NCBI GenBank assembly: GCA_009801085.1
Contig: VNWV01000001.1
Coordinates: 3,100,001 to 3,164,000, forward strand
Direction of reading: 5' to 3'
Length of the DNA stretch: 64,000 nucleotides
DNA from: Lasiodiplodia sp. COLG20
Taxonomy: Eukaryota; Ascomycota; Dothideomycetes; Botryosphaeriales; Botryosphaeriaceae
How positions within the stretch are numbered: the first letter of the stretch is position 1; each line of letters begins with the position of its first letter. The translations under genes and the position numbers were made by a program. Below the pieces are notes generated by a model that made no database searches, was not told the origin of the DNA, and worked only from the letters and a program-made list of their open reading frames with translations. Below are positions 1 through 24,772 of the stretch, one piece after another.

Positions 1-2769
1 TGACCTGTCCGAAACAGTTTCATCAGCAGTGAAGAACCCCACTTCACCGCGGAGCACAAGTAAAGGATCTCTTGACAGCGCCGCGCAGGAAAATGTCCCA
101 GTTGCGAGTGCAGCATGGTCGGGGTTTTGGATCACTACAAAACTTTAGCATTAGGAGACGAGTCCTTGGAGGTGTGTACTTACGCTCGTTTACGTTGAAC
201 GCATCAACACTCAGATAGAACCGAGCGGCGCTGGACCTCCCTTTCGCTACGCGTTCCGCCGCCTGGAAATCACCAATGTCCTCTCCCACATGAATATGGC
301 CTTCCATGATCTCTGTAAATCTTACACCCGCTCCCGAGTTGTTGGATTGGATCAGTCTGTCCGCCTCTTGGATGCCATATGTCATGGGAAGTGGTGTTTT
401 CGGTTCACCAAAAAGGTTCAGGGGACCATTTCGCGACCCATCGATGACCCATTTCTCTCTCTTCGCGAGGGTATCCATTGTTCGTTCGGCAAGAGCAGTG
501 ATAGTCGCGAAAGGGTTCACACCTGCAAGGTCAGCCAATAGTCTCTGAGAAACAATAGCTCAACAAAGTTACCTAAAGCTGTCGGTATAACAGCACCATC
601 AACGCAGACAAGGCCCTCGTGAACTTCATCACCGTCGCCCTTGAAAATCTCTCCAAAGTGGTTGGTGGCACCGGTACTACCCTCGCCGTTTCTGGCCATG
701 ATCAGTCCGCCCAACGGATGGACCGTGATCTCTTCACTGCTGTTGAATGCTTGGCAAAAGTGTTAGCTTAGCATCATTATGCTCAGAAATTGGGTTATAA
801 TCACCGGCATAGAACGGGGAGTTGATCATTGTGCCCCGGATTGCATCGGTTGCTTTTGTAAGGACGTTGTTCAGCTTTTTCACATGGTTGGTTCTGCCGA
901 CCCCAAAAAACTGGAGATACGGCTTGTCGTCAACGAGTGATAGTATGGCCTCATTGCTGTCGTGAGACATAATCAAATACGTCTGTGTTCGATTCACTGA
1001 ACTTCCCGTGGCATAGGGTCCCACAAGTCTGTTCTTGGTCCGCGATAACAGATGGCGCAATTGCTCGATGTATGCGTAGTGCGTAGGATAAATCCTACCG
1101 GGACATGCTTCCAGCATGGCCTGAAGAACCGGTGCCAATGCCGATGGGATAGCGCCTTCTTCAATGACGTGTCCGTCCAGAACATTTGGTGATGTCTTCG
1201 GGCCTCGATTATCGATAACGCCAGTGATGGTAGGACCAGGGGGCCGTTCGGATTGGGGCTTATCGCTGCCAATGCCATTGACGGTTTCGTCCGTGTTGTA
1301 GCCTACGGTCGACAGTCAGTAGCCGTTGTATCTATGATGATATTCTACCAACCAAAAGCCAGGATGTCTCCGTTTCCCGACATTTTCTGTCCGACGAATT
1401 GGGAGGTTTTCAGTCCATGTGCCTTCGAGCGGAGCATAATTCCTGTGCTTCCAATAGATCCAGCACCAAGGACACAGAGCTCTTTCTACAGCATTCATTA
1501 ATATATGTTCCCAAAACAAGGAGATTGGACTTACTGCGCGGACCCACATCAAATCGCTGTGAAATGCGTTCTTGAATGCTTTGCGTTCATCACCGTGCCA
1601 AGCATAGTAGACGACATACCCTTTCCCAGATGGATCCGGCAGAACATAACGCACTTCGCATTCGCAGAATATTTCTGTGCCATGGTTCCAGGCGTCGGGA
1701 ATGTAGTTCATGAGAACAGAGTTCTTGGACCCGTCGTTGACGCCCGTACAATCTTGGCCGGAGCCAGTTGATGCTTTCATCTCGACGCCAGCATTGTTGA
1801 ATCCGTTCTTGAAGAAAGTTGTCTGAGGCACACGGCGGAAGTTTTCCTTTTGGCCGAGGGCGATGGCCTGCTTCTCCAGGACGGAAAGCTTGTTCAGATG
1901 CGGATAGGACTCGGGGTACTCGGCCGGCTGAAGCATGTACTTGGCAAGTTGGTAATACCTGTCCAGCTCCTTCGGCTGGCTGCGGATTTCCTTGGGCCAG
2001 TTGCCCAACTGCAGAGTCCTTTCATCGCATTCGAGAAAAACGTTGGCATTGAGTAACGACGTTCCGCCCAGGCCTGAAAAAGAGAAGGTGCATCAGCATA
2101 GATTTCCGGAATGATATATTCCAAAGTGATCGTACCGTTGGCCACAAAAGCATTCTGGCCTTCACCAAGGATCAAATGATACAAACCCGTGTCGCCACCC
2201 AGAGCGACGTCAATTAGTGGACCGCTATCCCTGCCTGCGTTGCCCGATACATGGACTTCGGGCAAGGCTTCGACCAAGTTGCTGGGATATTCTCCGGCTG
2301 TATACGTACGTGGTCAGCACATCCCGTCTACGCAAGATAGAAATTAAATCCAGCACTCACGCCATTTTTCTTTGCCAAGCTCCAGGATTGCCACGCTCTT
2401 TCCAGCTCTTGAAGCTCTGCTGGCCGCAACGCCTCCACCATAACCAGATCCAATTACGACAACATCGTACTCGTGCCTGATGAGAGGCACTGGTTTGCTG
2501 AGCCTGGGGAATTTCGTTGGCCTGGCAGGCTGCTCGCGGCCTACAAAGAAAGAGGTATCGCCAACCATCAGACGATCTTTTAAGGTCTGCGACGGAGCCG
2601 CCTGCTGCATCGCTTTGCGGTCCCCGAATTTTACCTTTTTCGAGTTGACTCCACCGGGGTAGCCATCTTGCGTGTCGAATTTGGTCGCATTGGGGGGTTG
2701 GACAGCGCCGCCGCCAAAATCCTCTCCTGGTGGTGATGAACGTCCTTTTAGAGAGATACTCGGCGCCAT
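1..2769 (-). CDS. Cholesterol-oxidase-like GMC flavoenzyme (3' end beyond window)
   Basis: This is an FAD-dependent oxidoreductase of the GMC/cholesterol oxidase type, which oxidises a sterol or other alcohol. I read eight exons: 2769-2361, 2297-2136, 2073-1535, 1485-1353, 1302-805, 749-573, 522-184 and 134-1. They keep one frame for 797 codons up to the window edge. The FAD-binding motif GSGYGG lies near residues 107-112, GLGGTSL follows as exon 3 opens, and HPLGG, typical of cholesterol oxidases, lies near residue 591. The Met at 2769 is preferred to the in-frame Met at 2814 because a TATATA sequence at 2841-2848 lies about 75 bp upstream of it. No signal peptide is visible, so the enzyme is probably intracellular. 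The family is clear from the motifs; the substrate is not. The C-terminus lies outside the window. Confidence 0.9.
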
Positions 2770-6068: not shown

Positions 6069-6076
6069 ATATATAA
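6069..6076 (+). promoter_or_regulatory. TATA box of the repeat-peptide precursor
   Basis: ATATATAA lies about 130 bp before the ATG at 6201, followed by a CT/AC-rich stretch typical of a fungal transcript start. A GTAGGT at 6133 and a CAG at 6178-6180 could bound a small intron in the 5' leader. This is inferred from position and sequence only. Confidence 0.5.
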
Positions 6077-6200
6077 ACCCCTCACCACTGGAGAGAAACA
6101 AACCATCTTCAACCCCTCCACGGAATAAAACTGTAGGTTGCCTTATGCTCTTCCGGAATCAGCGCTAAGATCAGGCAGCCAGCCATTTCCACCTACGACT

Positions 6201-6743
6201 ATGAAGTTCTCCGTCGCCCTCAGCGCCGTCGTCGGCCTTCTCGCCACAGGAGCTACCTCAAATCCTATTGCGAACCCGAACGCCGTCGAAGCATCTGCTT
6301 CGTCCGAAATCAGCCCCGAATGGGACTACGGAAAGCGGGATGACATTATCGAGCCCGAGTGGGACTACGGAAAGAGGGACGAAGTCACTGAGCCTGAGTG
6401 GGACTATGGAAAGAGGGATGAGGTTGTTGAGCCTGAGTGGGATTACGGAAAGAGGGACGAAGTCGAGCCTGAGTGGGACTATGGAAAGAGGGACGAAGTT
6501 GAACCGGAATGGGACTATGGAAAGAGGGATGAGGTTGAGCCGGAATGGGACTACGGCAAGAGAGACGAAGTTGAGCCTGAGTGGGACTACGGCAAGAGAG
6601 ACGAGATTATTGAGCCAGAATGGGACTACGGCAAGAGGGATGTCGAGGGTGAAGTTGAGCCTGAATGGGACTACGGAAAGAGGGAGGCTAAGGCCGAGGA
6701 GACGGATGCTGTCGAGCCTGAGTGGGACTATGGCCGCAAGTGA
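6201..6743 (+). CDS. Secreted Kex2-processed repeat peptide precursor (RiPP-like, 11 PEWDYG cores)
   Basis: This 180-residue protein has a signal peptide (MKFSVALSAVVGLLATGATS) and a short pro-region. It then has eleven copies of PEWDYG; ten are followed by Lys-Arg and the last by Arg-Lys and the stop. The copies are joined by acidic spacers: DDII, DEVT, DEVV, DEV four times, DEII, DVEGEV and EAKAEETDAV. The plan matches Kex2-processed repeat proteins, including precursors of dikaritins such as ustiloxin, phomopsin and asperipin, and alpha-type pheromones. Cleavage after KR and trimming of the basic residues would release peptides close to (DEV)EPEWDYG. The Trp and Tyr in each core are plausible cross-linking sites. 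I do not recognise the core as a known pheromone or dikaritin. The longer frame opens with a non-ATG codon, so the start is the Met at 6201, which begins the signal peptide. Secretion and repeats are read directly; modification is inference. Confidence 0.9.
   Translation: MKFSVALSAVVGLLATGATSNPIANPNAVEASASSEISPEWDYGKRDDIIEPEWDYGKRDEVTEPEWDYGKRDEVVEPEWDYGKRDEVEPEWDYGKRDEVEPEWDYGKRDEVEPEWDYGKRDEVEPEWDYGKRDEIIEPEWDYGKRDVEGEVEPEWDYGKREAKAEETDAVEPEWDYGRK
6318..6740 (+). repeat. Eleven coding tandem repeats (about 36-51 bp each)
   Basis: The units encode PEWDYG, then KR (RK in the last copy), with spacers of 4 to 11 residues. The nucleotide copies differ mostly at synonymous sites: Pro uses all four CCN codons, Glu GAA/GAG, Tyr TAC/TAT and Gly GGA/GGC. 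The core peptide itself is invariant. The four central units are the most uniform in length, suggesting recent unit duplication. Confidence 0.9.
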
Positions 6744-7534
6744 GATGCCAACGCCGAATAAGATAGCGCTACTCGGAGATATGGTAGCGTAAACAGTTTA
6801 TCGGACGGTTTTGACCTGCTGTTTTCCATACCGTTGTTCTGGTCTACGTGACAATCAAGACTGTGAGCATGTAAAAATCTGAGATATTCAAATGATCCAA
6901 TTGCACTTTTTATCTGATAGCTTCCTTGGCTTCTTCGCTCTACGCAAATTAATATTATTCAGGAGATTAGTACATCATCCTGCGGACCACTTTCAAGTTT
7001 CATGTCGGGCCTCCTACGGGCCTGAGAGAATAGCGCGAAACTCGAATGAATTCTCAAGTCGGCGTCCGATTCTAGTAAAACACTACGTGTGATTCTACAA
7101 CCTTCAACAACACGCAAGCGTTCAGTAATATTTTATAAACAAGTCTTACATACCAGCCGATCATGTATACGTTATATTTCCGAATAAGCTTAAAGCCGTC
7201 CGCTGTTTGATTTGTTTCGATCTGCGTACCTATCCCTGTGGTATTCTTATCCCCCGGTGCAGAAATGTTTGCATTCTATTAAATCATTGGCTAATATCTC
7301 TAAAATGATTGGCACGATGATCTCTTTGGTTTCTTATCTACCGTTGTCCGACGCGTCACATCATTGCCCTCTACGGTGGAGTTGTGTACCTTGAAGTCCC
7401 ACGCATTACGTCATCAACCCCCTCAATATGCGCATATATGGGTCATGCTTGTGAGGCATTCAACTCAAACCCAGCCGGAGGGATTTTGCCGAATAATTGA
7501 CTTTCGAAATCTCAACATCTGCCAGATTGTTGAA
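6744..7534. other. Intergenic, no gene seen
   Basis: AT-rich sequence holding the 3' end of the peptide gene and the promoter of the rightward oxidase gene. No convincing reading frame or structured RNA was seen. Confidence 0.6.
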
Positions 7535-9387
7535 ATGGGAGAACCCAAGTCAGTAGCTATTGTTGGCGGTATGTGGATTCACGCCGCTATGTTTCTCTAC
7601 AACACTAACGAAAAGGAAAGCGGGCGTCTTCGGCCTTTCGCTGGCTGTTGCGCTGAATGAACGGGGTACGTAGCAAGCGCGGAGCGAATGTCTTGAAAAC
7701 CCGCCGTCTAATAGAATGCCAGGCTACAAGGTCAAAGTTTTCGACCAGCACAGATACGACGAAACCGGCTATCAGCCCGGGATTGACGCTTCTATTCAGG
7801 CGGCCTCAGTAGACGAAAACAAGATTGTGCGTTGCCCACTGCAGTGTCATCATTGTTTCGAGCGGACAGAACTGAATCCTCCTAGTTCCGGGCGTCGTAC
7901 GGGACGAAGCTGCACTACCAACGACTTGCTCTTGAAAGCCGCGAAGCCTGGCAGCTACTTAACGAAACGCGTAGGCATAGGGAACCTTCACATGGACACG
8001 GTGAGGATCTTTTTGTTGGTTGCGGCATGCTTCGCGTACAGCCTACGGAGGACCTCGGAGCCTTGGAAAAGGAAACACTGGCGAATATGGAACGCGCCGG
8101 CCTGCGCGACACACAGTTTGTGGAGAGCAACCCGGCGGACCGTGAGCGTGCAGCGAGCTTGGGATGGGCGTCGAAGCTGCTTCAGTTCGAAATCCCCGAT
8201 GCGCCTGCGCACGCCACCTACGAGGCGGTGCTTGATTCCCTTGCGGGTTTCACGAAGTGCAGCGAAGCATGTGCTCACTTTCAAAAGATAGCTGCGGCCA
8301 AGGGAGTAGAGTTCCGGTTCGGAAGTCACGAAGGAGCGTTTGACTCGTTCATTGAGGACACTAGCTCGACATCGACAACACAGAAGCGGGCGGTTGGTTT
8401 GAAAACTCGAGATGGAGTTAGTCACAAAGCGGATGTGGTGGTTATTGCCGGTTCGTATGGCCAGATATCCTAAGTTCAGCTCTTGCTAATACGGCAGTAC
8501 AGCTGGGTCCTTCTCCACACAGCTGCTTCCTGACCTGTCGTATCATCTCGAGTCATCCGGAGGCAGCATTGCGACGTTCAAGATAGATAAGGATGACACT
8601 TACCTGTGGGACAAGTATTCACCTGAGAAATTTCCTGTCATGACATGGAAGAGCGCGCCACGTAACAGCAATGGGAAGGACACGGGCAGCGTCTACGTTT
8701 TCCCCCGGACCCCGGACGGCCTTGTCAAGATCGGCTACCGCGGCATCAAGGTGCTCAAAATACGTTGCTTCGCCTCATGACATGCGCTAATTTTCGCCAT
8801 CATCCCAGTTCACGAATTTTCAACCAGCCCCCACAGGCACTCCTTTCACCCAGGAGAAACAGTGGTCTGTGCCGCTCCCACCGGCTGAGTCGTTGACCAT
8901 TCCCCCACCAGCTGTAGCCGCGATCAGGAATTTCGTCTCCATTTTTCTCCCCGAATTCAAGGATGTTCCGTTCCACTCTACGAAGCTGTGCTGGTACACC
9001 GACTCGCTAGACAATTCCTTTGTGGTGAGGTATCCCGTTGGTTGCTCTGATCAAGCGTACTTGCTGACACCTGGCCATGGCAGATCGATTACGTGCCAAC
9101 CTACGCCGATAGATCAGTTTTCGTCTGTACGGGCGGCAGTGGCCATGGCGCTAAATTCCTGCCGGTCCTCGGAGAGGTGAGTTGATCTTACATGAACGGC
9201 GAACTGGAGCTTTCGATTGGCTAATTGGGCTCGCGTTTGCATGCAGCATGCCGCGGACATCTTTGAGAATGGGGATAAAAGTTCCTCGTACATGCGGCAT
9301 TTTTGGCGGTGGCGTAGCGATGCCCCGAGAGGGAACGGCCTCGAAGAAGGGCCCAACGGACCTCGTAATATTGCAACGGAAAAATAG
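7535..9387 (+). CDS. FAD amine oxidase, saccharopine/fructosyl-amino-acid oxidase family
   Basis: A DAO-fold flavoenzyme that oxidises the C-N bond of an amino acid or N-substituted amine. Exons 7535-7568, 7621-7665, 7723-7826, 7886-8450, 8503-8750, 8809-9024, 9084-9176 and 9247-9387 give 481 residues in one frame, a normal length for the family. The spliced N-terminus reads [14 protein letters not shown], the dinucleotide-binding motif. FRASYGT follows, VVIAAGSFSTQ occurs mid-protein, and near the C-terminus are KLCWYTD, whose Cys is the covalent flavin site in this family, and [11 protein letters not shown]. Relatives include L-saccharopine oxidase, amadoriases and FsqB of fumisoquin biosynthesis. 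It lies between the repeat-peptide gene and a Dal5-type transporter, so both peptide tailoring and nitrogen catabolism are open. The family is certain; the substrate is unknown. Confidence 0.9.
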
Positions 9388-10308
9388 GTCAATGGTGGAT
9401 CTCGCAGTCTTGTACAGCAAGCGAATATGTCCCTGATGCAGGCGGGGGTGAGGTCTTCGAAGAAATATGTTATGGAATAGGGTCACTTATCCAGGAGCTA
9501 CTTAGCATCAAATTGCCGTTTATCTCCATTTTAGCCCATATGCTGATGCTCCCTTACACCATGAACTCGCTACCAACAACATCTTGGAAGAGCAAGAGCT
9601 GTCATGTTTGCGCTGTAATCTGGCAGTAGTGCTCCACCTTGGTGTTTCCAGAAGTAATGTGCTTGAGATTGCTCTCAACACCGTCCGGTGATCGAAGAAT
9701 ATGCACCTTCTCGGTTTAGACAAGACGCCGCCCAGGCGGGCCATAATGACAAGCCTCGCAAAGCCTCCGGCTTAGAAGAGACAAGACGCCGCGAAGGCTT
9801 CGACACCATGCTGTACTGGATTACGTGGGCCTGGCCTTGGACATTCTTGGCATACCTGCCACTTGAAGAAAATCATACCGAATGGTGACTTGGCTCGGAA
9901 CTTGAGACGTGAAAATTTTGCTTAATCGCCACATCAGGGCATCTGATAGGAAGAAGCATGCAGGCGGCCAAGCCTTCCGCGTAGGTCGGATCTTACTTCG
10001 GAGCGGCAAGGCATCGTGAAAGTCTTGCCAAGGATGCATTCCCGGAGCTGCCAAGGTCATGCCAAGGCATTCTGGGTCTGTGGCTGTCTGCCGTGCTTCC
10101 ATGCAAATTGGTGCATTTACGAAAGGGCGGACTGCCGTTCTATCTAATAAGAAATATATTGAGACGTTTCTCGTCGTCAGTGACCAGAATCTCATTCTTA
10201 TTGTTGCGACACTTCTGATTAACGCTTCCTTGGATCAATTCTGAGGAATCCGGCGATTGCCTTGTCTGCTGTTCACCCCGAATCCGCAGCGGACTCGCAC
10301 TTCAAATT
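9388..10308. other. Intergenic, no gene seen
   Basis: Holds the oxidase 3' end and the transporter promoter. The 13-nt word GACAAGACGCCGC occurs twice, near 9719 and 9780. No gene was recognised. Confidence 0.55.
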
Positions 10309-12230
10309 ATGTCGTCGAACAAGTATGACTCTCCAAATTTTGCCAGATATATCTTTAAAAAGGGTAATGAGTATGCTAATGATACCATCTCAAGGGGAGT
10401 ACATGATGAGCCTGGAGCACCCCAGGAAAATGAGAAGGGGGCCGAATCCCGACCGGTGAACAGCCAGCATGCTGTTTCTTCGGGAGAACTCGACGATACC
10501 ACGGTCTTTTACAATCTACACAAGGACAAAGTAGAGCCCCTGACACCGGAAATTGAAGCCTCAATCGTTCGTAAGAACTTTTGGTTTCTCTTGGCGCAAA
10601 CGTGGTGGATCGCCTTCTGCATCCACCTAGACAAGTCGACTCTTTCCCAAGCCAGCACCATGGGAATCTTCAAAGATGTCAACATGACGAAAGCAGAGTA
10701 CAACGACCTTTTCGTGGTTTTCTACACTGGGTACCTCATTGCCCTCTGGCCAGGAGCGATAATCTCGCAGCGGGTCGGGCAGAAGCATTTCATCACTGCT
10801 TCATTGTTCCTATGGGCTCTATTGCTTGGGATGCACCCGCTGGTCAAGACGGGGAAGCAACTCATTGGCCTACGGTTCCTGCTAGGAATGGTCAGTCATG
10901 TCCCGACCGAATTCACATTGGAGCCTGCACTGATGCATATAATTCCAGACGGAATCTCAGATTGTGCCCAGCACTACGGTGGTGCACCAGGCTTTCTTTC
11001 CTCCGCGGAAGAGTCCATGGGTTCAGCTGTTGTGGTGGGCTTCTGGAAGCTTCGCAAACGTTCTCCTGACCATGGTCGCCTACAAGCTCATCAAGGACGA
11101 TAACGTGGGCGTTCTCGTGGGTGGAATCTCGTCGTGGAAGTGGCTGCATATCATTTGTGTCGTCATTACCCTGGCCGTCTTCGTTCCACTTGTGTTATTC
11201 CTGCCTAATTCCCCCGTGGACGCGAAGTGGTTGTCAACAGAGGAGAAAGTACACACAATCGCCATGATTCGCCGGGAGCGTGCTGGCATCTCAAACTCGA
11301 CCTTTAAGTGGTCGCAGGTGCGCGAGTGCTTCACTGATCTGAAAAGCTGGTTATTCATGTAAGTTTGCTGTCTCCTTAGCTTTTCGTAGCCGGTTCACTA
11401 ACAGATACCAGCTTCCACATGTTCTTCAACGAGCTTCCAAACAACACTTCACAGCAGTTGCCACTTATTGTTGTCGGATTTGGATTTACAGCTGCGGAGA
11501 GTGCGCTCTTCAATATAGCGAAGCCTTTGATCGGCTCGCTGCTGATTCTCGTCTCGGCATGGATGTTGTACAGCACACGCCTCGGCACTGGATACACGTG
11601 CGCCATCTCCTATATCCCCTGTTTCGTTGGTGGCATCATCGAGGTAAGAAATCATCAAGCCAACGAATATTACTATTTGGTTGCTTAACGTTTGCTCCTT
11701 CACGTAGCTCGCATCTCCATGGTCGAATAAGGTTGCCCTAGTCGTTGGGACTCAAATCTCTACATTTAAACCCTCGTATCTCCTGGGTCTCTCCTGGGCC
11801 GGGACAACGACGACTGGATATACTAAGAAACTCTTTGTCATGTCGAGCTGTGTCGTCGCTGCATCTGTTGCGAACATGATTTCGCCGGAGTAAGTTCCGC
11901 AACAGCACCTTTCCCCTTTTTCACAAACAGTGGACAGGACAACATCTGACAAAATACGTGCTCTCCAGATTTTGGCAGGAAAAATACAAGCCGCGGTATC
12001 GGCTGCCGTGGGCGTTCATGACAGCCTTCTGGTTCATCTCGCCTGCCATGTGTCTGATAATTCGCTTCTATCTCGTGCACGAGAATAACCGACGTCGGCA
12101 GCTGCTCGACCAGATTAACGAGGCTTCCGATAGCGATGTGTACGACACGGGTAGTCAGGTCATTGCAATCCACGACGATGATCTCGATCAGACAGATCGC
12201 CAGGATTTGAAGTTCGTGTATCCACTTTGA
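10309..12230 (+). CDS. MFS transporter, allantoate permease (Dal5/ACS) family
   Basis: A plasma-membrane symporter of the anion:cation symporter family, whose members import allantoate, nicotinate, pantothenate or related organic anions. Exons 10309-10890, 10949-11358, 11412-11643, 11708-11889 and 11969-12230 give 555 residues. After a hydrophilic N-terminus come about twelve hydrophobic segments. Family landmarks include NFWFLLAQTWW, the LDKSTLSQAS segment after TM1, and the LRFLLGM-TESQIVPS junction created by the first intron. The cytosolic C-tail is acidic. It sits between an amine oxidase and an amidase on the same strand, which suggests uptake of an amide or ureide substrate. Export of a peptide product would be unusual for this family. 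Confidence 0.88.
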
Positions 12231-12952
12231 GGCCGGGTAATCTGCCTTGAGATGCAGCAAGCCAGGAGGTCTTGGTGAAGGAGACCAAGGGCTGTGAGTC
12301 TGCTTCTATGTGTATCACATCAAGGATGAGGCTGCTATGTCCTGAATGTGGCAATGGGGGAATCAAATTGTGAAGCAGCTGGAGATACACCGCCTGATTC
12401 AATTTATTGCTATCTTCAGCATCTCATATAGACCGCCAAGCCCTTTTCTTATTGTCATCTTAAAAAGGGCAGCTGTAGGCTATGTGCTATCTGGATTTGG
12501 ATGTACATGCACTGCACAAGTTAGCCGCAGCTACTGTGAAGTCTTTTGAGTCAAAATTGAGCCGCACATCCGATTGGTAAGTGGGAAATACTAGAGAAGT
12601 AGCACGAGACCATAATTAAGCACGGGATATTGGCGAATAGCAGGTGCAGAGGCCGTTGACAATGTTTCGAAAGGGATTGTGGAATATGGAAAACACGGGG
12701 ACCCGCGACACCCTGATGGCTCTTATCTCGCATGATCGGCGTTATTCCCTGTCAGGACATCAAGGTATTTGATAGCATTCTCCACAGCTTCTAAAAATCG
12801 CGCGGAGCAGAGACTCTACTGAGTCATCCTTCGAAGATCCATCGCAGTTCCTGTAACCGTGATGGAATTTTCAACAAGCTTTCAACTGGATTTAACCAAC
12901 GTGGTGATGCTGTCATAGCCAAAGAAACCCCCCCTGCACCGAATAAGCAGCC
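12231..12952. other. Intergenic, no gene seen
   Basis: Contains the transporter 3' end and the amidase promoter. Reading frames here are short and lack domain-like sequence. Confidence 0.6.
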
Positions 12953-14944
12953 ATGCTGCATCTCACAGTTTTGCCGATTGTCCTTGTCTCTACACGTTTC
13001 ATCTTTATCTTCGCGATCCTTGGTGGTGCTGCGGCTAGCTTGAGCGATAATGGTAGAACGGCAACTCTAAACGATATTTCCTACTACATTAGCGGAGTCC
13101 CGGTTGCGCAACTCTCAACACCTTCCTCCAATGCCCTGCAAGATAGGTTCCTGGATGAGGAGCTGTTTGCACTTACGGTGATCCATGCTGAAGCTGGATC
13201 CGTGGAAGAATACAACTCGACACTTTCCAATTTCAGACAGGAGGACGACGTTTTCCAGGATGGCTTCCTCCAGGCCGTCTACATCAGCGACATTTCAGCT
13301 GAGGCACTCGGCGCCTGTGCCTCATTCTCGCATGAAAGCTACGGAACCAAGCTGTTCATGGCCATAGGCACGAACGTCACTGGCGCCGTCTCCGCTACAC
13401 TGAATACTACCATCCCGAGCGGCCCTTACTTCGTCTCCACTGCAACCGGGAACATTTTCAAGGCCTACAGGCTCTATCGGGATGACTATGTAGCCTTCAC
13501 ACAACCCGTCATCAGCGATGAACAGGACGGATTTCTCTCACTACCAGCAACAACCGGGGACTTAATGACCAGAAGCATCGCGGTACCGTCAAGGCTCTAC
13601 TCCACCCCCTCCGCATCCCAACCGCTCGCCGGGCTCCGTTTCGCAGTAAAAGACATCTTCCACGTCAAAGGCGTCAAGACCAGCGGCGGCAGCCGCGCGT
13701 ACTACTCAACCTACGGCGTCCAAAACACCACGGCACCATCCGTCCAGCGTCTCCTTGACCTCGGCGCCATTCTGGTCGGCAAGACGGGCACGGCACAGTT
13801 TGCCAACGGAGACCGGCCCACGGCCGACTGGGTCGACGTGCATTGCCCATTCAACCCCCGCGGCGACGGCTATCAGCAGCCCTCCGGCTCATCGACCGGA
13901 TCGGCAGTCGCAGTCGCAGCATACGACTGGCTCGACATGGCCGTCGGCAGCGACACGGGCGGCTCGATGCGCAGCCCGGCGCGGCTGAACGGCGTATTCG
14001 GCAACCGTCCCTCCACCGGCGCCGTGTCCATGGACGGCGTGCTCCCCTTGTCGCCGCACCTCGACACGGCCGGTCTGTTCACCCGCAGCGCCGCCCTCTG
14101 GTCCAACGTTACGCGGCACTGGTATAGCAACAACAACACGTCCAACTTCTCAGCGCCGACGTATCCGCGCAGCATATACATCTCGAGCGATTCGAGAGAC
14201 GGGTCCGTCCCCGAGGCCCTCGCCCTCTTCGACGCCTTCGTCACCCGCCTCGCCACCTTCCTCAACGCAACCCGCACCGACACCCTCGACGTGCGCCAGC
14301 GCTGGGCCGCCGACACCAACACCAACACCACCGCCGTCCCCCTCGACCACCTCCTCAACACCACCTACGCCGTCCTTACCGCCATCGACCAATACACCCT
14401 CCTCGGCGCCCCGCTCATCGCCGCCCACGCCGCCCGTCACGCCGGCGCGCACCCCTTCATCAACCCCAACCCGCGCACACGGTGGGCCTGGGGCCAGCAC
14501 CACACCTCCACCGACCCCACCGCCTACGCCGCCGCGCTGCGCAACATGACCCTCTTCCGCACCTGGTGGCGCGACACCGTCATCCGCCCCTCCGCCACCA
14601 CGTGCTCCGAGGGCCTGTACGTCTACCTGCGGTCGTCGGGCACGCCTAGCTACCGGGACGAGTATTTCGAGCCGAGCGAGCAGCCGCCGCTGGGCTTCGC
14701 GGACTGGACGATTGCGGGGTGGGCGGGCGCGCCCGAGGTCGTGCTGCCGGTGGGGGAGGTGGAGTACGTGAGCGCGGTGACGGGAAGGACGGAGTGGTTG
14801 CCGGTCGCGGTGACGGTGCAGGTGGCGAGGGGCTGCGATGGGATGTTGGCGGCATTGGTGGAGGGGTTGGAGGGGGCGGGGGTGGTGAGGGGGGTGGTGG
14901 GGGTGGGGTCGAGGTTGTATGGTGGGGAGGAGGAGGAGGAGTAG
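12953..14944 (+). CDS. Secreted amidase-signature hydrolase with long N-terminal extension
   Basis: An intronless 663-residue amidase-signature enzyme that hydrolyses C-N amide bonds. The Ser-cisSer-Lys triad can be placed: Lys233 in FAVKDIF, the cis-Ser near 314 in SGSSTGS, and the nucleophile Ser338 in GSDTGGSMR. The 24-residue spacing between the two serines equals that in FAAH-type enzymes. A hydrophobic N-terminal signal is followed by about 190 residues before the amidase core, and several N-x-S/T sites occur, so secretion is likely. The extra N-terminal domain is common in fungal secreted amidases but its function is not clear to me. The last 60 codons lie in a very G-rich strand and end in five Glu. 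It is codirectional with the transporter and oxidase. The class is certain; the substrate is not. Confidence 0.9.
   Translation: MLHLTVLPIVLVSTRFIFIFAILGGAAASLSDNGRTATLNDISYYISGVPVAQLSTPSSNALQDRFLDEELFALTVIHAEAGSVEEYNSTLSNFRQEDDVFQDGFLQAVYISDISAEALGACASFSHESYGTKLFMAIGTNVTGAVSATLNTTIPSGPYFVSTATGNIFKAYRLYRDDYVAFTQPVISDEQDGFLSLPATTGDLMTRSIAVPSRLYSTPSASQPLAGLRFAVKDIFHVKGVKTSGGSRAYYSTYGVQNTTAPSVQRLLDLGAILVGKTGTAQFANGDRPTADWVDVHCPFNPRGDGYQQPSGSSTGSAVAVAAYDWLDMAVGSDTGGSMRSPARLNGVFGNRPSTGAVSMDGVLPLSPHLDTAGLFTRSAALWSNVTRHWYSNNNTSNFSAPTYPRSIYISSDSRDGSVPEALALFDAFVTRLATFLNATRTDTLDVRQRWAADTNTNTTAVPLDHLLNTTYAVLTAIDQYTLLGAPLIAAHAARHAGAHPFINPNPRTRWAWGQHHTSTDPTAYAAALRNMTLFRTWWRDTVIRPSATTCSEGLYVYLRSSGTPSYRDEYFEPSEQPPLGFADWTIAGWAGAPEVVLPVGEVEYVSAVTGRTEWLPVAVTVQVARGCDGMLAALVEGLEGAGVVRGVVGVGSRLYGGEEEEE
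14860..14943 (+). other. G-rich tract with quadruplex-forming potential
   Basis: Several runs of four to six G lie within about 70 nt at the 3' end of the amidase gene, on the coding strand, so the transcript would carry them too. They encode a Gly/Val-rich tail before a (GAG/GAA)n end. Quadruplex formation is inferred from composition. Confidence 0.5.
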
Positions 14945-15372: not shown

Positions 15373-16358
15373 CTAAGGAGAGAAGAGGAGGGGAACGTCG
15401 CTCGGGCTGGCACTGAGCATTGCGGCACTCAGCGACTGCACAATAGAAACCTCGATCTCAGTGGCACCAGGCGTCCAGCCCAGCTCAACCGGCAGGCGCT
15501 CATTCCCTGCAACCAATTAGCATTCGTGTTCCAAATGGCGCCCACTGAACAAACTTACTGAAGAAATACTCGAAGTACTCCCTGTTCGCACCCGGATTCT
15601 CCACGCTTCCCCACACCAGCATCATCATGACGCTCTCGCCCACCATGATCGGGAGGTTTGTTGAAGTAATGGTGAACTCCGGGTTGATCTTGCTCATCTC
15701 GTACGCATGCTTGGCGCGAGCGACGGCGGTCTCGTTCACGCCAAGGACTGTGGCGTTGCTGTCGAAGTAGCTGAGAAATTCATCGAAGGTCTCTTCATTG
15801 AATTTGTTGGACGTGTCGAAATACATGTCGCGTCTGGACAGGCTACCGTCGTGCTCGAGGACGTTGTGCTTGTGCAGCATGTCGAAGTCGAACCACTAGC
15901 CAGGGTTAACGGGGTTCAAGTGTGCATGCTCGGATTGGAAATACGTACGGTGGCGTTGGGAGTGGGGTTTGTGCGCAGGCCGCCGTTGAAGAATGTTGTT
16001 GCCAGGGCTGGCGCAATGTTCATGGCACTTCCGAGAGCATCAATGGCTTTATCGAGAGTGATGTTCCGGCCGTTGTGGGGGAGGAACTCATGGTTGGCAA
16101 GAGTGTTGAGAACGGGGCAAGGAGCACGGACTGGGAAACAATCAGTATAAACATCAAGTCTTGAAAAAAGGCAGCTGTACCGTCGTCCTCGCCCGGAGCA
16201 GTCCAAGTGTAGTGGTGCGGCTTCAGTCCGCTGTCCCTGTTCTGAATCTGACGGGAAGCCTGGGCCGCAAGGCTACCACCATCGTGAGCAAGGTGGGAGA
16301 AACCGAGAGCAACCGGAAGGACTCCGATGCTCAAGCCGAAAGAAAGTTGCATCTTCAT
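15373..16358 (-). CDS. Secreted heme-thiolate peroxidase (short unspecific peroxygenase/CPO family)
   Basis: A secreted heme-thiolate enzyme that uses H2O2 for peroxidation, halogenation or oxygen transfer. Exons 16358-16181, 16130-15949, 15895-15559 and 15506-15373 give 276 residues, typical of short UPOs. A signal peptide starts at Met 16358 (a second Met lies two codons later). APCPVLNTLANH carries the proximal heme ligand Cys64. HNVLEHDGSLSR near residues 130-141 is the distal EHD-S motif of short peroxygenases, and ERLPVELGW lies near the C-terminus. A TATAAA on this strand (16421-16426) lies about 65 bp before the start. It could modify aromatic side chains, including those of the Trp/Tyr peptide encoded 9 kb away, but that link is inference. 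Confidence 0.93.
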
Positions 16359-16420
16359 TTTTTGTTGGTGTAGTACGGTTCGTGCTGTGCGGACGTCCAA
16401 AGGAAAGGAGAAGTCTCCGG

Positions 16421-16426
16421 TTTATA
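16421..16426 (-). promoter_or_regulatory. TATA box of the peroxidase gene
   Basis: TATAAA on the minus strand, about 65 bp upstream of the peroxidase ATG. Assigned by sequence and position only. Confidence 0.55.
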
Positions 16427-17943
16427 GAAACATAACATCCTCGGCATGTTCTAGTCTTTTCTCACGCATTGACAGCTCGGATCAATAACAGCACTTTCCA
16501 CGGACTTGTTGCTAAGATGTCATGTCAAGATAGCTACAGTGCCGGCGGCATGTTCGGGAGTACGGCCGAAAGGCCGCCAAGCCTATTACTCGTTACTCGG
16601 AACGCGCTAGGACTGTGCCCCCCTTAGGCTGTGTCGGTAAGCCGGGAACCCTGCACGAATCCGTATGGTGTAGCTCGTATTACTATATACCGGCTTTTGA
16701 TTGGCGAATCGTCGAAACACGGACTACACCTGCCCTGAGCTTTAAAATTTGCTTATGCCACGTCGCCACTCAAACAAGGAGTTTCCGTGCTGCAGCATCC
16801 GTCTCCGTCCGCATTTCCAGCCGCTTCAAACGTCCGTAAGCATCTGATGCTACAGAATGGCAGTCCTGAATGGGTAATTCTTAGCCGTGCTTCTCCTCAA
16901 AACGTTCAGTCGCCCCGGCGATGGCACCACCTTTTCATGTGCTTAGGTATTCTCAATGTCCCCTCTCACATTTGGAATGCCAAATATCTAGAGGATCCAA
17001 AATCACAGCCACCCAACATCTCATCGAGCGGGTACAAGCCACAGATTGCAGGCTGTGCAGAGGCTCAGAGGCTCAAAAGGGCCGTTTCACTGGCGTGGAA
17101 GGCCTGAATTTGTTGGTTGTTGGCATTCACTAGATGTCGAAAAGTTCTCCAGTATAATTCACGGCAGCATACCTTGAATTTAGGCAACAGCGGTAAATTG
17201 TAGACTTTCCGGTTTGTGGAAGGTGTCAGGGTGGATGGCATGAGCAGAGAAAAATTGCTAGTGCTGTGATCGATAAGATGATCGATAAGATCAGGCTGAT
17301 GTCGAATGATCAGCGAAACCCGGCAAGATCTCGGCCAAGCCTTTGGTGACAATGTGGGTAGCGCGGCCGGCGAGACGTAAATTGGGTGGGATATCACTTC
17401 TAAATTGAACGCTGAGAAGATTATATGGCTGATGATTTAACCTTTCTCACCTGCAAATCATAGAAACGCCGTGGCTTGAATTCCTCAAGCTACACATGTC
17501 ATCGGGCCGGGCCGTCGGTTACGTCGATCCCGCAAGCACGAGCCATGACAGCCGCCCCGCTGCTCACGAGTAGACCAGTCAGTAAACAGTGTTTCAACTA
17601 CGGCCCATGCCTCCAGCTTTGGCCACTGGAAACAAGCTCTCCGTCGCACAGGCTTGTCGCTAGAAGCGAAACCCATCTGCGCAGCCTTCTAGAACTCCCA
17701 CCCTTCTTGAGATTGAGGACATGAGTCTGTTTGCCAAAGTTCATGAAATAAAGAGTGATACTCGATGATGGTAGAAGTGAAGCTCTGCCGAAGTAATGTG
17801 AAGTTTCACGTAATAAATTTAGTTGTCAGTGGTTTGAAATTCAATCCTTTCCATTTCCACTAACACTATTCCCAAGCGAGGCCCGCATGCTCGAGTATGT
17901 CCGCATATATCTATCATTTTCTTCAAACGTTCCATCAAGTCGT
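16427..17943. other. Intergenic, no gene seen
   Basis: About 1.5 kb between the peroxidase promoter and the 3' end of the leftward membrane-protein gene. A direct repeat of ATCGATAAG occurs near 17270-17290. Reading frames are short and unconvincing. Confidence 0.55.
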
Positions 17944-20243
17944 TCAGTCTTCATGTATGATCAAAAACTCATTAGTTTTTTTCCCGCCGTGTTCCTCTGA
18001 CTCATCGGCGTTTTGAGGGGTTTCTGAAATTTCCACGGCTGTGCATGTGTGGTGAGGCAGTTTTCCGCTGAGAGTGTGGTCAGAGCTAGCCTTATCTGAA
18101 GCTGCCTCGTCACCCTCCTTGGAAGGTAGACTTTGGTCATCAGCGTTTCGGCGAGCGAGCAGCTCTTCGAAGTTCGCGGGTAGTGCTTTCAGGGTTGGGT
18201 GAGCGCGGTTGGTGATATCCAACGTAGCCAGCTTCTGCCCGTTATCCGTGTATGGGACAGCTTCCGCGCCGTCGTGCCACGTACCCGCCCCGAGCTCTTC
18301 ATGTGCCATGCGCTGCAGTTGCAATGTTTCATTCGCGCACCACTCGAGACGCGAGTAGGTGTCGAGATGACGGGGCCTCTGCAAACAGCGCGCCACAGGC
18401 TCGATGGAGTAGGAGAGGACAATGATTATGGCGCCGACGACGAGAGTGAGGCAGAGACCGAAAGTGTTGAAGTTGGTGTATGCAGTGGTGATGATTTTCT
18501 AAGCACAGAGCGGTTAGCGACAAACATGATCTGCTCTACCCACTTGAGCAAGAGGATGTGCTTACCTGACTTCGGCATATATTTTTCTCCGCATCATTTT
18601 GCGGTGTCTCGACCCACCGCATCACCTCCGGATCAGACGGACCTGTCGCAGCCACCACAAAGCTGCCCTGCAAGGTGGAAAGCCAGATCGTAAACCAATG
18701 TTCGACTTCGAGTTGCCATTGGTTGGTCGGTAGTGGAGACTGGAGCCCGACCCAGAGTGCGTATCTCGAGGTCAATCCCGAGTTTCCGAGGCCACCCGCA
18801 ATTCGCTCAATCGATGTTGACAGCGCATAGGAGAACCAGTCAAAGTTCTCTGCCTTCTTGAGGTCTTTTGCCCGTGTGAATGTGTCAGCCAAGGTTCCCA
18901 GCTCGGTGCATTCCTTTGAAGTGCAGAGTTGGTACTGGGAGACGCATGCAAGGGCGGAGGCGGCCTCGTCGGCGAAGTACATCCTCACCCTCCCCTCCAG
19001 GGTCGAGAAACCAATCAGATCAACATTTCTGTGTGCCGAATACCAAAGATCATCCGTCTCTGTCGTGAACAGCACATAGTTGGCGGACAGAAACATCAAA
19101 GTGACATCGCCTTCGACTTGGCGGAGCTCGGGGATAGGCGTAAACACGGAATCCCAAGTTGGAGCACCGTTGGCATACTTCGCTTGTCTGATGCTGCAAG
19201 TCGTGTCAGACTGGACATCTTGAAAGTACTGGACAGTATGATGAAAGAACATACCCGAGAACGTAGTCTGAGTTTGCACTCGTGCCGTTTTCGCCCCTTT
19301 TTTGTTCATACGACCCCACCGGATATTCATAAGTGTAGTTATACCCCGGCCTTAGCTCGCCGTAGTAATACCTCATGTACTTCACTTCCTGACCATCGAA
19401 TGAATGTGTGTACTCCTTCTTGTACCCATCACTCTTCATCGGCGCACATTGCAGTAGGGATCTGTATCTGAATTGCCGCTCTGGAGGATCATTCAGGCCG
19501 AGGTGGTCATTGCTGTTGATGAAGCCAGAGTCGAGCTCCAGGTTTCCGAACTGGCTCTTGCATAGATCTCCTCCAAATGGACAAGTCGCATTCCTATTTG
19601 CCGACCATGGCAGCTGTTGTTGGACGTATTTCTGGCATTCTTGGGAACTGGAGAGATTCGTGTAGCAATTCTGGGCGTAGTTGGCGAAATCCTTGTCCTT
19701 CTTCACTCTGTAGGGTGCGTAAACCGAGGTGTATAGCGATTGGTTTACTTCTCGCAGCTCGTCAAAGTGGCCACAGGATGGACTCGAGATGAGAACCTGC
19801 GATCCGGTCGAGGTCGCGATCTTGGAAGAAAAGATACCTGCTACTGCAAAGCAACAGAGACAGGTGGCAGTGAATACCAGTAGCGGTAGAATACGGCGAT
19901 GTGCTTGGGGTGCTTTGCGATGCCAAACCCATGCTAACTGTCCCAGGGACCAGAATCCGCTCACACTGGTGGCCGAGTTGCGAAGGATTGCCTGGCGCTG
20001 GTGGTAGATCCCGTCTCGAGGAGCCTCGGAAGAAAAGCGATGATGAAAGAAGTAACAAGAAGCTCTCCAGAACGCGGTTCCGGTCCACGTAATGAACAGA
20101 GCGATGAGCGATATCAAGAAACCACCATCACGCCTTGTGAGGGTGATGGTGCCTCCAAGGATTGCTCCATCTGACCAGTTGATCCACGGACCTGTGTGGA
20201 TGCCATAGTACTCCGCGGGATCTGATGTGGAAAAGTTACTCAT
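17944..20243 (-). CDS. Large fungal multi-pass membrane protein, function unknown
   Basis: Exons 20243-19255, 19193-18566 and 18498-17944 give 723 residues in one frame. The N-terminal part has hydrophobic segments (FLISLIALFITW, and ILPLLVFTATCLCCFAVAGIF near residue 120). A long Cys- and N-glycosylation-rich loop follows, then a further segment (FTIWLSTLQGSFVVA) and a final one (LCLTLVVGAIIIVLSY), and a hydrophilic cytosolic tail rich in Asp, Glu and Ser. This is the layout of a common family of Pezizomycotina membrane proteins without assigned function. The extracellular loop contains many paired cysteines. It reads toward the peroxidase gene. I do not know its role. Confidence 0.8.
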
Positions 20244-23200
20244 TGTGAACAGAGGTTGTGGTTGAAAAAGCGGATGAAGGTGAACGGACCTGGGGCAGAT
20301 ATCCTTGATTTAAGTTTCTGCTCAACACAACACCGGAAATTGCCGTCTTGATTTCTGGCTGAGAATTTTCCTGTGAGGGTGTCAACTGTCACCCACGGTG
20401 GTGCGCAGCCGTTGAGCCACAATTAGCACCTTGCGCTCCGACTGTGGGGTAGCTCAGCCATTCTGTGCTTCTACTGGTGGAGTGTTGTTCGACGTTATCG
20501 TGGAACACCAAAATAGAGTATTACCGATGTTTATTGCAGAAGTACAAGGTTCGTATCAAGCAGACTCTGTAGCAGGTCGAACCAGAATAGCACGGGAGCA
20601 TGGGTGCAAGGAGATGCCCGTGTGACATTTTGCCCGGCTGAGCGTTCCCAGATGTCGGGAGACGCATCCGGCGCTGCTTGATAATTTTAACAATTAAGCT
20701 GCGAGGCGCATCGATGATTGGCTGGATACGGCTCTGTCGGCTTTGTGGTGTCATGACCCTTGCATGCCAATCGGCTTACCGAGCAAAGATGATCAGGGCA
20801 GAGGGGGGCCAAATCCCCAGGAAAACAGGTCGATACGAAGTGTGGCAGGGGGTGAAGCTGACGCGCGCGGTGTCTACAGTGAACGGGTATCTTGATCCAG
20901 GTTCACGTCCCAGCATTCGATCTGTTCTGGCATCAAATTTATCTGATCGGCGAAGACCACGTGGACAGCTCCAGGCTGCTACTGCCGATCGCACAGGAGG
21001 AAAACGATTATTTTGTTTGCTGCTTGGACATTACAACTACCCACATCAACCGGGTGGGTCATTTTTTTCAAGTTAAGAAAAGATGTAAGTGGGGGTTAGA
21101 CGAGGTGCAGCGGCCTCAACCTCAATGCAGGCCGCTACCCCTGCAAGCAAGGGTTTTGGGAACAGGGTAGTACATAGTGCTGCAATGCCATTTTTAACAC
21201 CCTAGACGACAAAGCATATCATACATTCACCCATCACCTGGAAGAGCTGTACGCACTGGCAAGGCGAGCGGGACAATCCGCACAATGGAACAGGGGTCGA
21301 TCCCGTTTGCCACACAGAGTGCAGCTACGTGAGATTCAGCCTTGCGAATCCCAAGTTTCCTCACGCATGCCCGCCGGAGTCGCCATTTCTGCCTTCAATA
21401 CAACTTCTTTCAGGTGGCACTAGACGTACAGGTATTCCTCGTCGGAGATGTCCTTGTCCAATCGGCCATAAACGCCCTGATCTGCTGCCGTGTTTGCACC
21501 GTGCACGGCAGAGAGCATCTCTGTCGCTCAGATCGTCAAAGCAGCGGCCCTTGATGTCGCGGGGGGCTTCCTCGTTACAGTCATTGATGTGGGGGCCCAT
21601 TTCCTGGTGGTCTTGCGTGTAGCCTTCGACAGCGCACGGAATGCTCCGTGAGGCATACAACAGAACTGGGACATCTCGAAATACGAACTACCACCTTATG
21701 CGTCTCAATCCGGCGTGTCGGGTGGCCGAAGCAATGCCGTGTCCTCCCTGGGAGGTTTTTTTTTGGGGGCCGATAATGATGAGGGTTGGGGGCCGGAATG
21801 CTGTGGCAAGGACTTCCAAATTGATTGGATGCAAGCTGGTCTGAGCTTCTTTCTGTGCAGCGGTCACCATAAGAGGAGGGTTGGAGCGGAAGGTCCGGAG
21901 AGTAGGGGAAGCCATCCCACTTCCTACTCCGGAACGGGTGTCACTGGGAAAATCCTTCGAAGCTGAGTGTTCGGATCTTTGGAGCTCCGGCAAGCATCTA
22001 GGGAGGAAGCTTGGTGCTTTGGTGATAACGGTAGAGTTATTCTTGTCTTCATTTCAAAACAAGCACCCGTTCTCTCACGACATATGTAAGGCTCAGGCTA
22101 AAATCGCTTGTTGCGGTACTTGAATCAGTCACCATTCAGAAAACGGCTACGTGCAAGATGAGCGCATAGTGTGATGCAACTGCAGTGCAGTGAGCTCACA
22201 ATTGGACGAATGGGAACCGGGCTTCGCACGAAGCAGATTTCCAACAACGCAGACTTTAAAGAGCAGACAAGATCGCGAGTAGCTTTATCATGAGCAGAAG
22301 GAAGCTTATTCCCAACGTACTGCGCGAATTAGACACACATACAGCGTGATCCAGAACCAACACTGCGGCGAGGCCGACGGGGCGCGGGTTCACGAGCAAA
22401 CCGGGCTTAGCAACGAAAACCGATGGCGTGTCGCGGTAGAAGGACGCCAGCCATAATCACTAGCACCAGGCCGCTTGAGCTCAGCCTAAGGAGATGCCGC
22501 AGCAGAACGGTAGTGCTGCAACAGCAGCCTCAAGCCCCACAGACCCCAGGGTCTCCTGCCAAAGGAAGCCGCGTGCACGACGGACGTCTGGTAAGTAGGC
22601 CCTGGAATGGTCTTACAGCCTCCTCTGAACGGTCGGGGCTTTCCCAGTCGGACTTTGTTCCCAAGTGCAACAGCAAATATGGTATGTGTTCGGCCGGACG
22701 TTCGGCGGGGTGAAGATGGGTGTAGGAGGAGACGTACGCCGTGTGGCAGTGGCGAAAAGCGTCGATGTGCGACGGAGAGAGGCGTGGTAGTTACGGGGGT
22801 TGTCGAGGGCGTGGTTGGGAGGTGGAGGTGGACGCGTCTGGACTGATGGCGCGGTCGCGACATCGCGTCATGGGTAAGCTCAGACTAGGCCTAATTCAGT
22901 CAAGTGCCTCGGCCCGCCTTCCGCACCCCGCTGTCCCGTCGGCTCAGCTCGCTGCTGGAACGCTTTCAAATCCCCATTCATGTCCGAATCTTGGCTTCAG
23001 CTATCCACGTTCGAGGAACGCATCGTCTCTCAAGATACGACAGCGCCTTCAGCTGCGCCGCGGACACTCTTGCTCCGCTCGACTTCAGCGTCCTCCACTC
23101 CAATGCTTTCTTTCCCTCAGCTTTTTTCGTCCGCGCTCAGGTTCACGACGCGCCTTCTCGTTGATGGATGAACAAGCCTAACCTGCTGCTGTTGAGCTGG

Positions 23201-23580
23201 GTTCCGTGAACACATATTGAGCCGAAAATAATACGTCAGGGAAGAAGCCACTGTGGAATCAATACGGAAGAGAATCAAAGAAGATAAAATACAGGTGAGA
23301 GTACATGAAGGACATAGAGGAGAGAAAGGTCCACAGAAAGCGAAACTGGAGTCCTTCCACAAATGGTGGATCCAACACCGCTGCCTCTATCACGTCATTC
23401 CCTGAGTGTCGTTGCCTCGTTCTCGGAAACTTGCCCTTGAATCACAGGTTTGCAAATGAATCGCAACATCAGACCTTGGTTTGAGGTCATGATGCCTTCT
23501 TTGTACAGCTGATATCCACCAGGATTGCGTCGACGAGGCCACCGGTCGATAGGACTCCCGCTGCCAACGACAATGCTGTG
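20244..23580. other. Gene-poor region, no intact gene seen
   Basis: About 3.3 kb. Several overlapping frames at 21,330-21,990 and 22,420-22,860 are rich in Arg, Ser, Pro or Gly and look like composition effects. No conserved motif, RNA gene or transposon end was recognised. The first 200 bp hold the promoter of the leftward membrane-protein gene. Confidence 0.5.
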
Positions 23581-23975
23581 CTACTTGACCGCCACCTCCT
23601 CGAAATCAAACACCCACAGCAAAGTCGTAACAGCCAACGACAGCTCCACCAACGCCATGTCCTCGCCAGGGCAGCTGTAATGCCCAAATCTGAACGGATT
23701 GGACACTACACACTTGTGCTGTAGCCCGTCCTGTTCACACTTTGTCTCCCTCCCGGCATGATAACCACCGCTCCATCGCGAATTTATGCGGCAGTTCTGA
23801 GTACCTGGCGCGCTTGTGAATGCTGTAGATGACCATCTTGATGTTGATGCCTACCAGCAGCGCCTTGTCGTCTACTATGCACTTATCGCGCCTTACCTCG
23901 CGGGACGGCACACCGCCGACTTGGGCGATGACACGTATGGCTTCGTCAATATAGATGTGCAGACTGGTACATATG
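23581..23975 (-). pseudogene. Decayed cytochrome P450 C-terminal fragment
   Basis: The minus strand retains the order of P450 C-terminal landmarks. A K-helix ExxR (YIDEAIRVIAQV) lies near 23,955. It is followed by a PERW-like FAMERWL ending at a TGA at 23,735. After a frame change comes the heme-binding loop FRFGHYSCPGEDMALVEL, with the Cys kept but the usual Arg replaced, ending at a TAG at 23,581. The I-helix and the whole N-terminal half are not found upstream. It is therefore a truncated, frameshifted relic. A missed intron could explain the frame change but not the missing N-terminus. Confidence 0.75.
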
Positions 23976-24772
23976 GTCAGGACGGTTCCGCAGCGGATCA
24001 GCACGCGCAAGATGAAGGCGGCGCGGTTGGCGTTTGGGTGGTGGCGTGCTCGCCATGGTTGTGGCGGCGGTGGTGGAAAGCCATGGATCGCGCGGTTGCC
24101 GTTTTGGGCAGTGCTGCCTGGCATAGTAACAAAACAGATGGCGAAAAAGCAAAAGGCAAAAACCTAGCGGCACACTCCCCGAAATCGAACCTTGAACCTG
24201 ATGCGGCTCTCGGCAGCGGTGCGTAAGCATATAGGAAACCCTCACAAATCTGCTAAGTGGTTTTTTACCTTTCGGTACCTTTCGGTGACAAGAGAAGCTC
24301 GCTGTTTGGCTTATATACCCCACGTAAATCACCCACCAGTACATGACGGCCATAGAAATACAAAATGCTGCAGGTAGCCCAGCACCGTTCGGCCGATCGT
24401 TGGGCCCGCCTCATAGTGTGCTCTTTGTGAATCGCCTATGCTGCCTTACAGTGTGTTCATTTCTGAGATGCCAGCGCCCAATAAAATCACGTTGCTGGCT
24501 TTGACCATAGTTCCGAATGCACTTCGGCGAGAACGGACTCACGTAAGTGCTAGCAGGCCGTTCGGGCAAAGCGTGTTTTAGTAATTTCTGAAGCGACTAA
24601 TGAGCGTATTTAATGCACAACAATCCCTCGCACGTATGCCCCCCGTTCAGAAAACGTCAACCATCAAAGACCACAACTCAACAAAGAACGCTGCCCGAGA
24701 ACCACTTCTTCAGCGTCCAACTGGTTCGAAAACAGCAGTAAAGCTGCCTTCTACCATCCACACAGTATGTTT
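23976..24772. other. Intergenic, no gene seen
   Basis: Upstream side of the P450 relic and 3' flank of the small secreted protein gene. I could not recognise further P450 sequence here. Confidence 0.5.

Follow-up and report, generated by a model that had tools for sequence, protein, structure and literature searches.

The precursor gene and its layout

The window analysed here is the whole 64,000-nucleotide stretch G000:C1:3100001-3164000, taken from a 43.5-Mb genome of 88 contigs. It contains an uninterrupted open reading frame for which ATG, stop codon, frame and coordinates are all exact, with no internal stops, and which a protein search returns as a single-copy gene in this genome. The features of this gene are listed below.

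6070..6077, plus strand: TATA-like element, ~130 bp upstream of the ATG (consensus match only)
6201..6743, plus strand: uninterrupted reading frame, coding for the 180-aa WDYG-peptide precursor (calculated pI about 4.2)
6201..6260, plus strand: putative signal peptide MKFSVALSAVVGLLATGATS (roughly residues 1-20), from the hydropathy profile, with an estimated cleavage site
6261..6314, plus strand: short leader NPIANPNAVEASASSEIS preceding the first core; the relative P0004 has a similar KPITNPDTVE
6315..6734, plus strand: array in which eleven PEWDYG cores alternate with ten KR sites and with acidic spacers 4-11 residues long
6639..6716, plus strand: the two longest spacers, flanking the tenth core (DVEGEVE, 6639-6659; EAKAEETDAVE, 6684-6716)
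6735..6740, plus strand: C-terminal RK behind the last core, present likewise in P0004

Residues 1-20 have a hydropathy profile resembling that of a signal peptide. The eleven PEWDYG copies lie between residues 39 and 178, with KR after ten of them and the C-terminal RK after the last, and a dibasic pair thus stands directly behind the core in every case (11/11). The spacers read DDII, DEVT, DEVV, DEV (four times), DEII, DVEGEV and EAKAEETDAV, each followed by E and then by PEWDYG; the first core is preceded by S instead, and E-PEWDYG is the constant unit in 10 of 11 copies. Nine internal units of 10-13 aa each are bounded by KR. The longest spacer opens with an EA-KA dipeptide run that resembles the trimming signal of Ste13, for which the rule is XA or XP dipeptides following a Kex2 site (PMC6339444). 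There is no Cys anywhere in the protein. At the DNA level Tandem Repeats Finder resolves the array into 9.6 copies of a 36-bp unit, with 81% matches. A DNA pattern for WDYG plus a basic pair, which misses the eleventh core with its following RK, has 14 matches across the 43.5 Mb; ten lie inside the precursor gene, and the remaining four are isolated, in frames without repeats.

The preliminary description of this locus had proposed a signal-like N-terminus followed by eleven PEWDYG cores with KR sites and acidic spacers, an anatomy that the exact reading frame confirms. Two Pfam matches to the precursor, GnHR_trans (E 2.2e-5, above the cut-off) and FKBP_C (E 0.0058, under the cut-off), were rejected as repeat-driven chance, no single stretch passing alone in either case. 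An antisense open frame of 179 aa (6258-6797, minus strand) spans the whole array, and is probably a by-product of the codon make-up of the repeat.

Apparent selection on the core

Across the eleven copies the 18-nt core has five variable sites, every one a third codon position, and all variants are synonymous. When all pairs of copies are compared, codon differences in the core number 134 synonymous and 0 nonsynonymous, against 28 synonymous and 106 nonsynonymous differences for codons -4 to -2 before it, which bears out the earlier claim that the cores are constant and the spacers variable. At least seven changes are required in the core. The chance that all would be synonymous lies between about 4e-6 and 3e-5 in simple mutation models with transition weights from 1 to 4, a p value that is indicative and not a formal test, the copies being related and possibly subject to homogenisation. 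Because the codons of the core differ while its amino acids stay the same, the peptide looks selected. The amino-acid sequence of the core appears to matter, with the spacer freer to change; varied N-terminal spacers look tolerated, and recognition seems to fall to the C-terminal (E/D)WDYG.

Predicted Kex2 processing and products

Kex2-processed repeat proteins (KEPs) are defined by three or more tandem repeats between Kex2 sites, none shorter than 8 aa (PMC7329392), a definition to which the nine KR-bounded units conform. The class also requires Kex2. Two proprotein-convertase P-domain matches were found in the genome, one of them in an 801-aa reading frame on contig C88 whose top solved-structure match is Kexin 2id4 (E 2.9e-174), with furin next, and a kexin reading frame is thus present in the same genome as the precursor.

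We conclude, with a probability of about two in three, that the gene product is a KEP, giving rise to secreted linear acidic peptides, not cross-linked in the UstYa manner, that serve as a signal or target other organisms. The precursor would enter the secretory pathway, where Kex2 would cleave behind every KR and a Kex1-type carboxypeptidase would take the KR off. The cell would then export some ten linear peptides, short and acidic, that end in EPEWDYG, with DEVEPEWDYG (neutral monoisotopic mass 1237.48) predominant. The nine predicted internal peptides are DDIIEPEWDYG, DEVTEPEWDYG, DEVVEPEWDYG, four copies of DEVEPEWDYG, DEIIEPEWDYG and DVEGEVEPEWDYG, and cleavage at KR is predicted to yield one further peptide from either end of the array. 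The cleavage, trimming and secretion of the precursor we infer from its sequence. Once outside the cell, the WDYG peptide would serve in signalling or be aimed at other organisms; WDYG peptides are probably a secreted signalling or interaction family and not of the cyclic toxin type.

Could the precursor simply remain intact, an acidic protein of the wall or surface in which the KR pairs are incidental? The dibasic pair that follows every one of the eleven cores, and the kexin encoded in the genome, make this very improbable.

Gene neighbourhood and the dikaritin question

The following genes and matches surround the precursor gene in the window.

about 1634-2466, minus strand: GMC/FAD oxidoreductase (Pfam)
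7535-9177, plus strand: split gene, by eye FAD-dependent amine oxidase-like, no Pfam match in the three frames scanned
about 10603-11380, plus strand: MFS transporter (Pfam)
12947-14941, plus strand: amidase (Pfam)
about 15557-16131, minus strand: family-2 (chloroperoxidase/peroxygenase type) haem peroxidase (Pfam), ~9 kb from the precursor
about 24895-25083, minus strand: lectin-like match (Pfam)

Pfam coverage of the window comprised 1-2840, 9117-10234 and 15430-25419 on the minus strand and 7401-12402, 12947-14941 (one frame), 20600-26702 and 28000-31532 on the plus strand, together with ten single reading frames from 28357 onward, six of which gave a match, one of the six under the cut-off. 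Farther downstream these scans show DUF7605, FHA, short-chain dehydrogenase, beta-lactamase-like and epimerase domains, with DUF2306 below threshold, and the 10 kb upstream of the window, scanned on both strands, carry carboxylesterase, MFS, Tle1-like and Ysc84 domains. Scanning the window for Rfam families and tRNAs gave no match.

Does the core become a dikaritin-type RiPP, that is, a Kex2-cut Trp/Tyr core cross-linked by distant UstYa oxidases or by an unknown local oxidase? The signal-like N-terminus, the repeats, the Tyr-bearing aromatic core and the Gly before KR resemble precursors of the ustiloxin type, and those of ustiloxin, phomopsin and asperipin share with the window protein their Kex2-bounded repeats, aromatic core and acidic spacers. 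Where a KEP is linked to UstYa, 65.6% of its class's repeats contain Tyr, compared with 38.2% for other KEPs (PMC7329392), and UstYa genes are present elsewhere in this genome. A GMC/FAD oxidoreductase, an MFS transporter and a family-2 peroxidase all lie within ~10 kb of the precursor; oxidoreductase, peroxidase and transporter could be part of an unknown tailoring pathway, although such genes are not diagnostic.

At the locus itself, however, searches for UstYa and tyrosinase gave no match. The exon-level search for UstYa (PF11807, DUF3328) gave 26 matches genome-wide (E up to 1), 23 of them above the cut-off, counts that are lower bounds given the exon-level search. None was found in the window at this level, the nearest on the contig lying near 4.10 Mb, about 1 Mb off, and the UstYa gene expected in a dikaritin cluster is thus absent from the precursor locus by this search. 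For comparison, among the 7878 KEPs predicted across 1461 strains, UstYa is one of the 15 closest genes for 1758 (22%), at a mean distance of 3.09 genes, and is absent for 6120 (PMC7329392); with no UstYa near the precursor, the locus therefore sides with the majority of KEPs, which have no UstYa neighbour. Tyrosinase, a further mark of the ustiloxin and phomopsin clusters, has 40 matches in the genome, all of them outside the window; on this contig the closest (C1:3196974, 23 codons) lies ~33 kb beyond the window end. The window protein also lacks the EDYXI core that PMC6339444 names for ustiloxins and phomopsins.

A dikaritin-type RiPP is therefore an unlikely product, and a linear acidic peptide, chiefly DEVEPEWDYG, is the better reading. 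The preliminary description had spoken of a fungal RiPP or signalling peptide, with a product, '(DEV)EPEWDYG', that might be linear or cross-linked. Its secreted Kex2-repeat anatomy stands, and the RiPP alternative is weakened by the lack of UstYa and tyrosinase matches in the window; the linear form is favoured over the cross-linked one, for which no UstYa match was found within ~1 Mb. The product as then written is exact for the four DEVE spacers and does not describe the others. Dense UstYa groups are seen elsewhere in the genome, at G000:C7:294566-301323, C34:13567-17679 and C57:26752-30607, and are probably real dikaritin-type clusters.

Relatives carrying WDYG

Three protein database searches returned 21, 30 and 23 rows, giving 34 distinct relatives; the last two scored only the ~8000 candidates that shared most words. 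WDYG is present in 32 of the 34, a constancy that is partly built in, since the relatives were retrieved through words that include WDYG. Those with WDYG span five named genera (Colletotrichum, Seiridium, Truncatella, Didymella and Kalmusia) in at least two ascomycete classes. By taxonomy look-up Colletotrichum and Seiridium are Sordariomycetes and Didymella and Kalmusia Dothideomycetes; Truncatella groups with Seiridium.

The relatives differ in what surrounds the repeat. P0004 (105 aa) has four DWDYG units, a leader similar to that of the window protein and the same WDYGRK end. The Colletotrichum-type proteins (n = 24, 22 of them from Colletotrichum) comprise a signal-like start, a conserved pro-segment, 0 to 9 WDYG units and a C-terminal domain of ~100 aa, with junctions that are mainly KR, RARKR and RVRKR; the pro-segment is absent or altered in P0003 and P0015, and the C-terminal domain is shortened or different in P0018 and P0021. 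All 93 of the W-x-Y-G units in this group read WDYG, and one extra unit in P0005 reads WDYS. In Didymella exigua P0014, together with P0030, P0035 and P0036, RWDYG accounts for nine of 15 units and Ser follows the Gly in nine of 15. Seiridium cardinale P0032 and Truncatella angustata P0034 are stand-alone arrays. In Kalmusia sp. P0033, NWKKV, NWRKV and NWKKI repeats are followed by two PDWDYG units with no clear KR behind them; it is a short secreted-type protein that combines two kinds of repeat. P0013 (140 aa) has three WDYG units and a trimming-like KREAEA signal; its C-terminus is CSVM, a prenylation motif of CaaX-like type that conflicts with a secreted precursor. P0017, with one WDYG and one WGYG, is a weak relative.

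The C-terminal domain of the Colletotrichum carrier is annotated at source as 'Ecp2 effector protein domain' in P0011, P0012, P0026 and P0028, and Pfam gave no domain above the cut-off in the six Colletotrichum-type proteins scanned. P0029 from C. kahawae and P0031 from C. jinshuiense have the pro-segment, the KR and the domain but no WDYG, and P0031 matches P0002 at 73% across 107 domain residues. The retention of pro-segment, KR and domain without WDYG implies that the array has been gained or lost within the family, unless these two are paralogues that never carried an array. The predicted structure of P0031 has a mean pLDDT of 34.6, too low to be of use. Array length differs among strains and species of Colletotrichum. 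A search of the window's own genome for the Colletotrichum carrier, run without a positive control, gave no match.

The position of these arrays raises the alternative that WDYG repeats are not the product at all, but cleavable pro-segments or chaperone-like spacers that are subsequently degraded. In the Colletotrichum proteins they do occupy the propeptide position, ahead of a C-terminal domain. There is, however, no other mature domain in the window protein, in P0004 or in the Seiridium, Truncatella and Didymella proteins, and the eleven cores of the window protein are free of any amino-acid change, making this alternative improbable.

Outside the array the similarity between the groups of relatives is slight, and array-driven E-values and profiles made from their own hits exaggerate homology. 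The scattered WDYG precursors may be either homologous or convergent. Their sequences suggest that WDYG cassettes are modular and housed in several different secreted precursors. The preliminary description had proposed a search for homologous precursors, and candidates were found, with different flanks around the same WDYG. A bolder reading, which we think less likely than not, is that filamentous ascomycetes share WDYG as a conserved, modular cassette for secreted peptides: one C-terminal tetrapeptide ahead of basic cleavage sites, carried on stand-alone precursors in two classes, in 1-9 copies within the propeptide of a secreted, effector-like Colletotrichum protein, and on one precursor with a CaaX-like tail.

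A mating pheromone?

The same precursor logic is used by alpha-type mating pheromones, and the EA-KA run in one spacer, like the KREAEA of P0013, fits such a role. Three alpha-factor consensus patterns gave 0, 54 and 13 matches in the genome, none clustered enough for repeats within a single gene, and none of the 14 frames inspected among the 67 was precursor-like. No repeated canonical alpha-factor having been found, the usual pheromone gene is unaccounted for, although three patterns are not exhaustive and this is weak evidence for assigning its role to the window protein. The alpha-pheromone types described for Dothideomycetes are a two-cysteine type, known also from Leotiomycetes and Sordariomycetes, and a PYGxPxG type (PMC6339444). 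A mating-pheromone role becomes less likely because the PEWDYG core matches neither of these types, and WDYG arrays also occupy the propeptide of a Colletotrichum secreted protein. We consider it unlikely that the precursor is the alpha-type pheromone of this fungus, and prefer the linear KEP peptide described above.

Significance of the WDYG ending

PEWDYG appears to be a new core inside a known precursor class, the KEPs. Full-text searches of the open-licence literature found no paper with PEWDYG or related strings, and none that joins WDYG with Kex2; where the letters WDYG do occur in open-licence papers, none of those judged by title and the start of the abstract is about fungal peptide precursors. 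The earlier remark that the core was not one recognised among dikaritins or pheromones is thereby upheld, as far as print outside the figures and supplements of the KEP surveys is concerned. To our knowledge, most predicted fungal KEPs have no known function.

The part worth following is the WDYG ending itself, which recurs across genera and on multiple carriers. If the cassette is truly conserved, this would suggest a single conserved receptor or target, fungal or belonging to the host, on which very different fungi rely. An ending of four residues, shared by five named genera and several precursor designs, leads to a testable 10-residue peptide of known mass, and offers a handle on the role of unmodified KEP peptides. 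The Colletotrichum carrier, whose array ranges from 0 to 9 units, would amount to a natural test of how such a peptide is delivered.

Comparison with known systems

The KEPs surveyed in PMC6339444 and PMC7329392 share with the window protein a signal-like N-terminus, dibasic-bounded tandem repeats and small secreted type; the main texts of both surveys are without a WDYG core, and their figures or supplementary tables may list such a type. Linear KEP peptides, some of them pyroglutamated, have been seen by mass spectrometry in Coprinopsis cinerea (PMC9769878). These are short and linear, like those predicted here, but have other sequences, come from a basidiomycete, and in several cases carry pyroglutamate. 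In one C. cinerea protein the peptide that Kex2 releases is joined to a GH128 domain at the C-terminus (PMC9769878), a parallel to the Colletotrichum carrier. Deletion of kep genes in C. cinerea gave no detectable phenotype (PMC9769878), and a function for the WDYG peptide is therefore not assured.

The Gly directly before KR is shared with animal precursors of amidated neuropeptides such as adipokinetic hormone. Searches of the genome for the amidating monooxygenase domains PF01082 and PF03712 gave no match, and the controls gave none either. An adipokinetic hormone echo (PF06377) in P0002, P0012, P0017 and P0032 was under the cut-off every time, the match in P0002 (E 0.0069) covering 12 residues, and was rejected.

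The hybrid pheromone precursor HPP1 of Trichoderma reesei (PMC3068285) is described as lacking a predicted signal sequence, and the main text of that paper has no WDY; the window protein, for its part, has no CaaX motif. HPP1 carries three (LI)GC(TS)VM copies together with Kex2 sites, and P0013 likewise combines Kex2-bounded repeats with a terminal CSVM.
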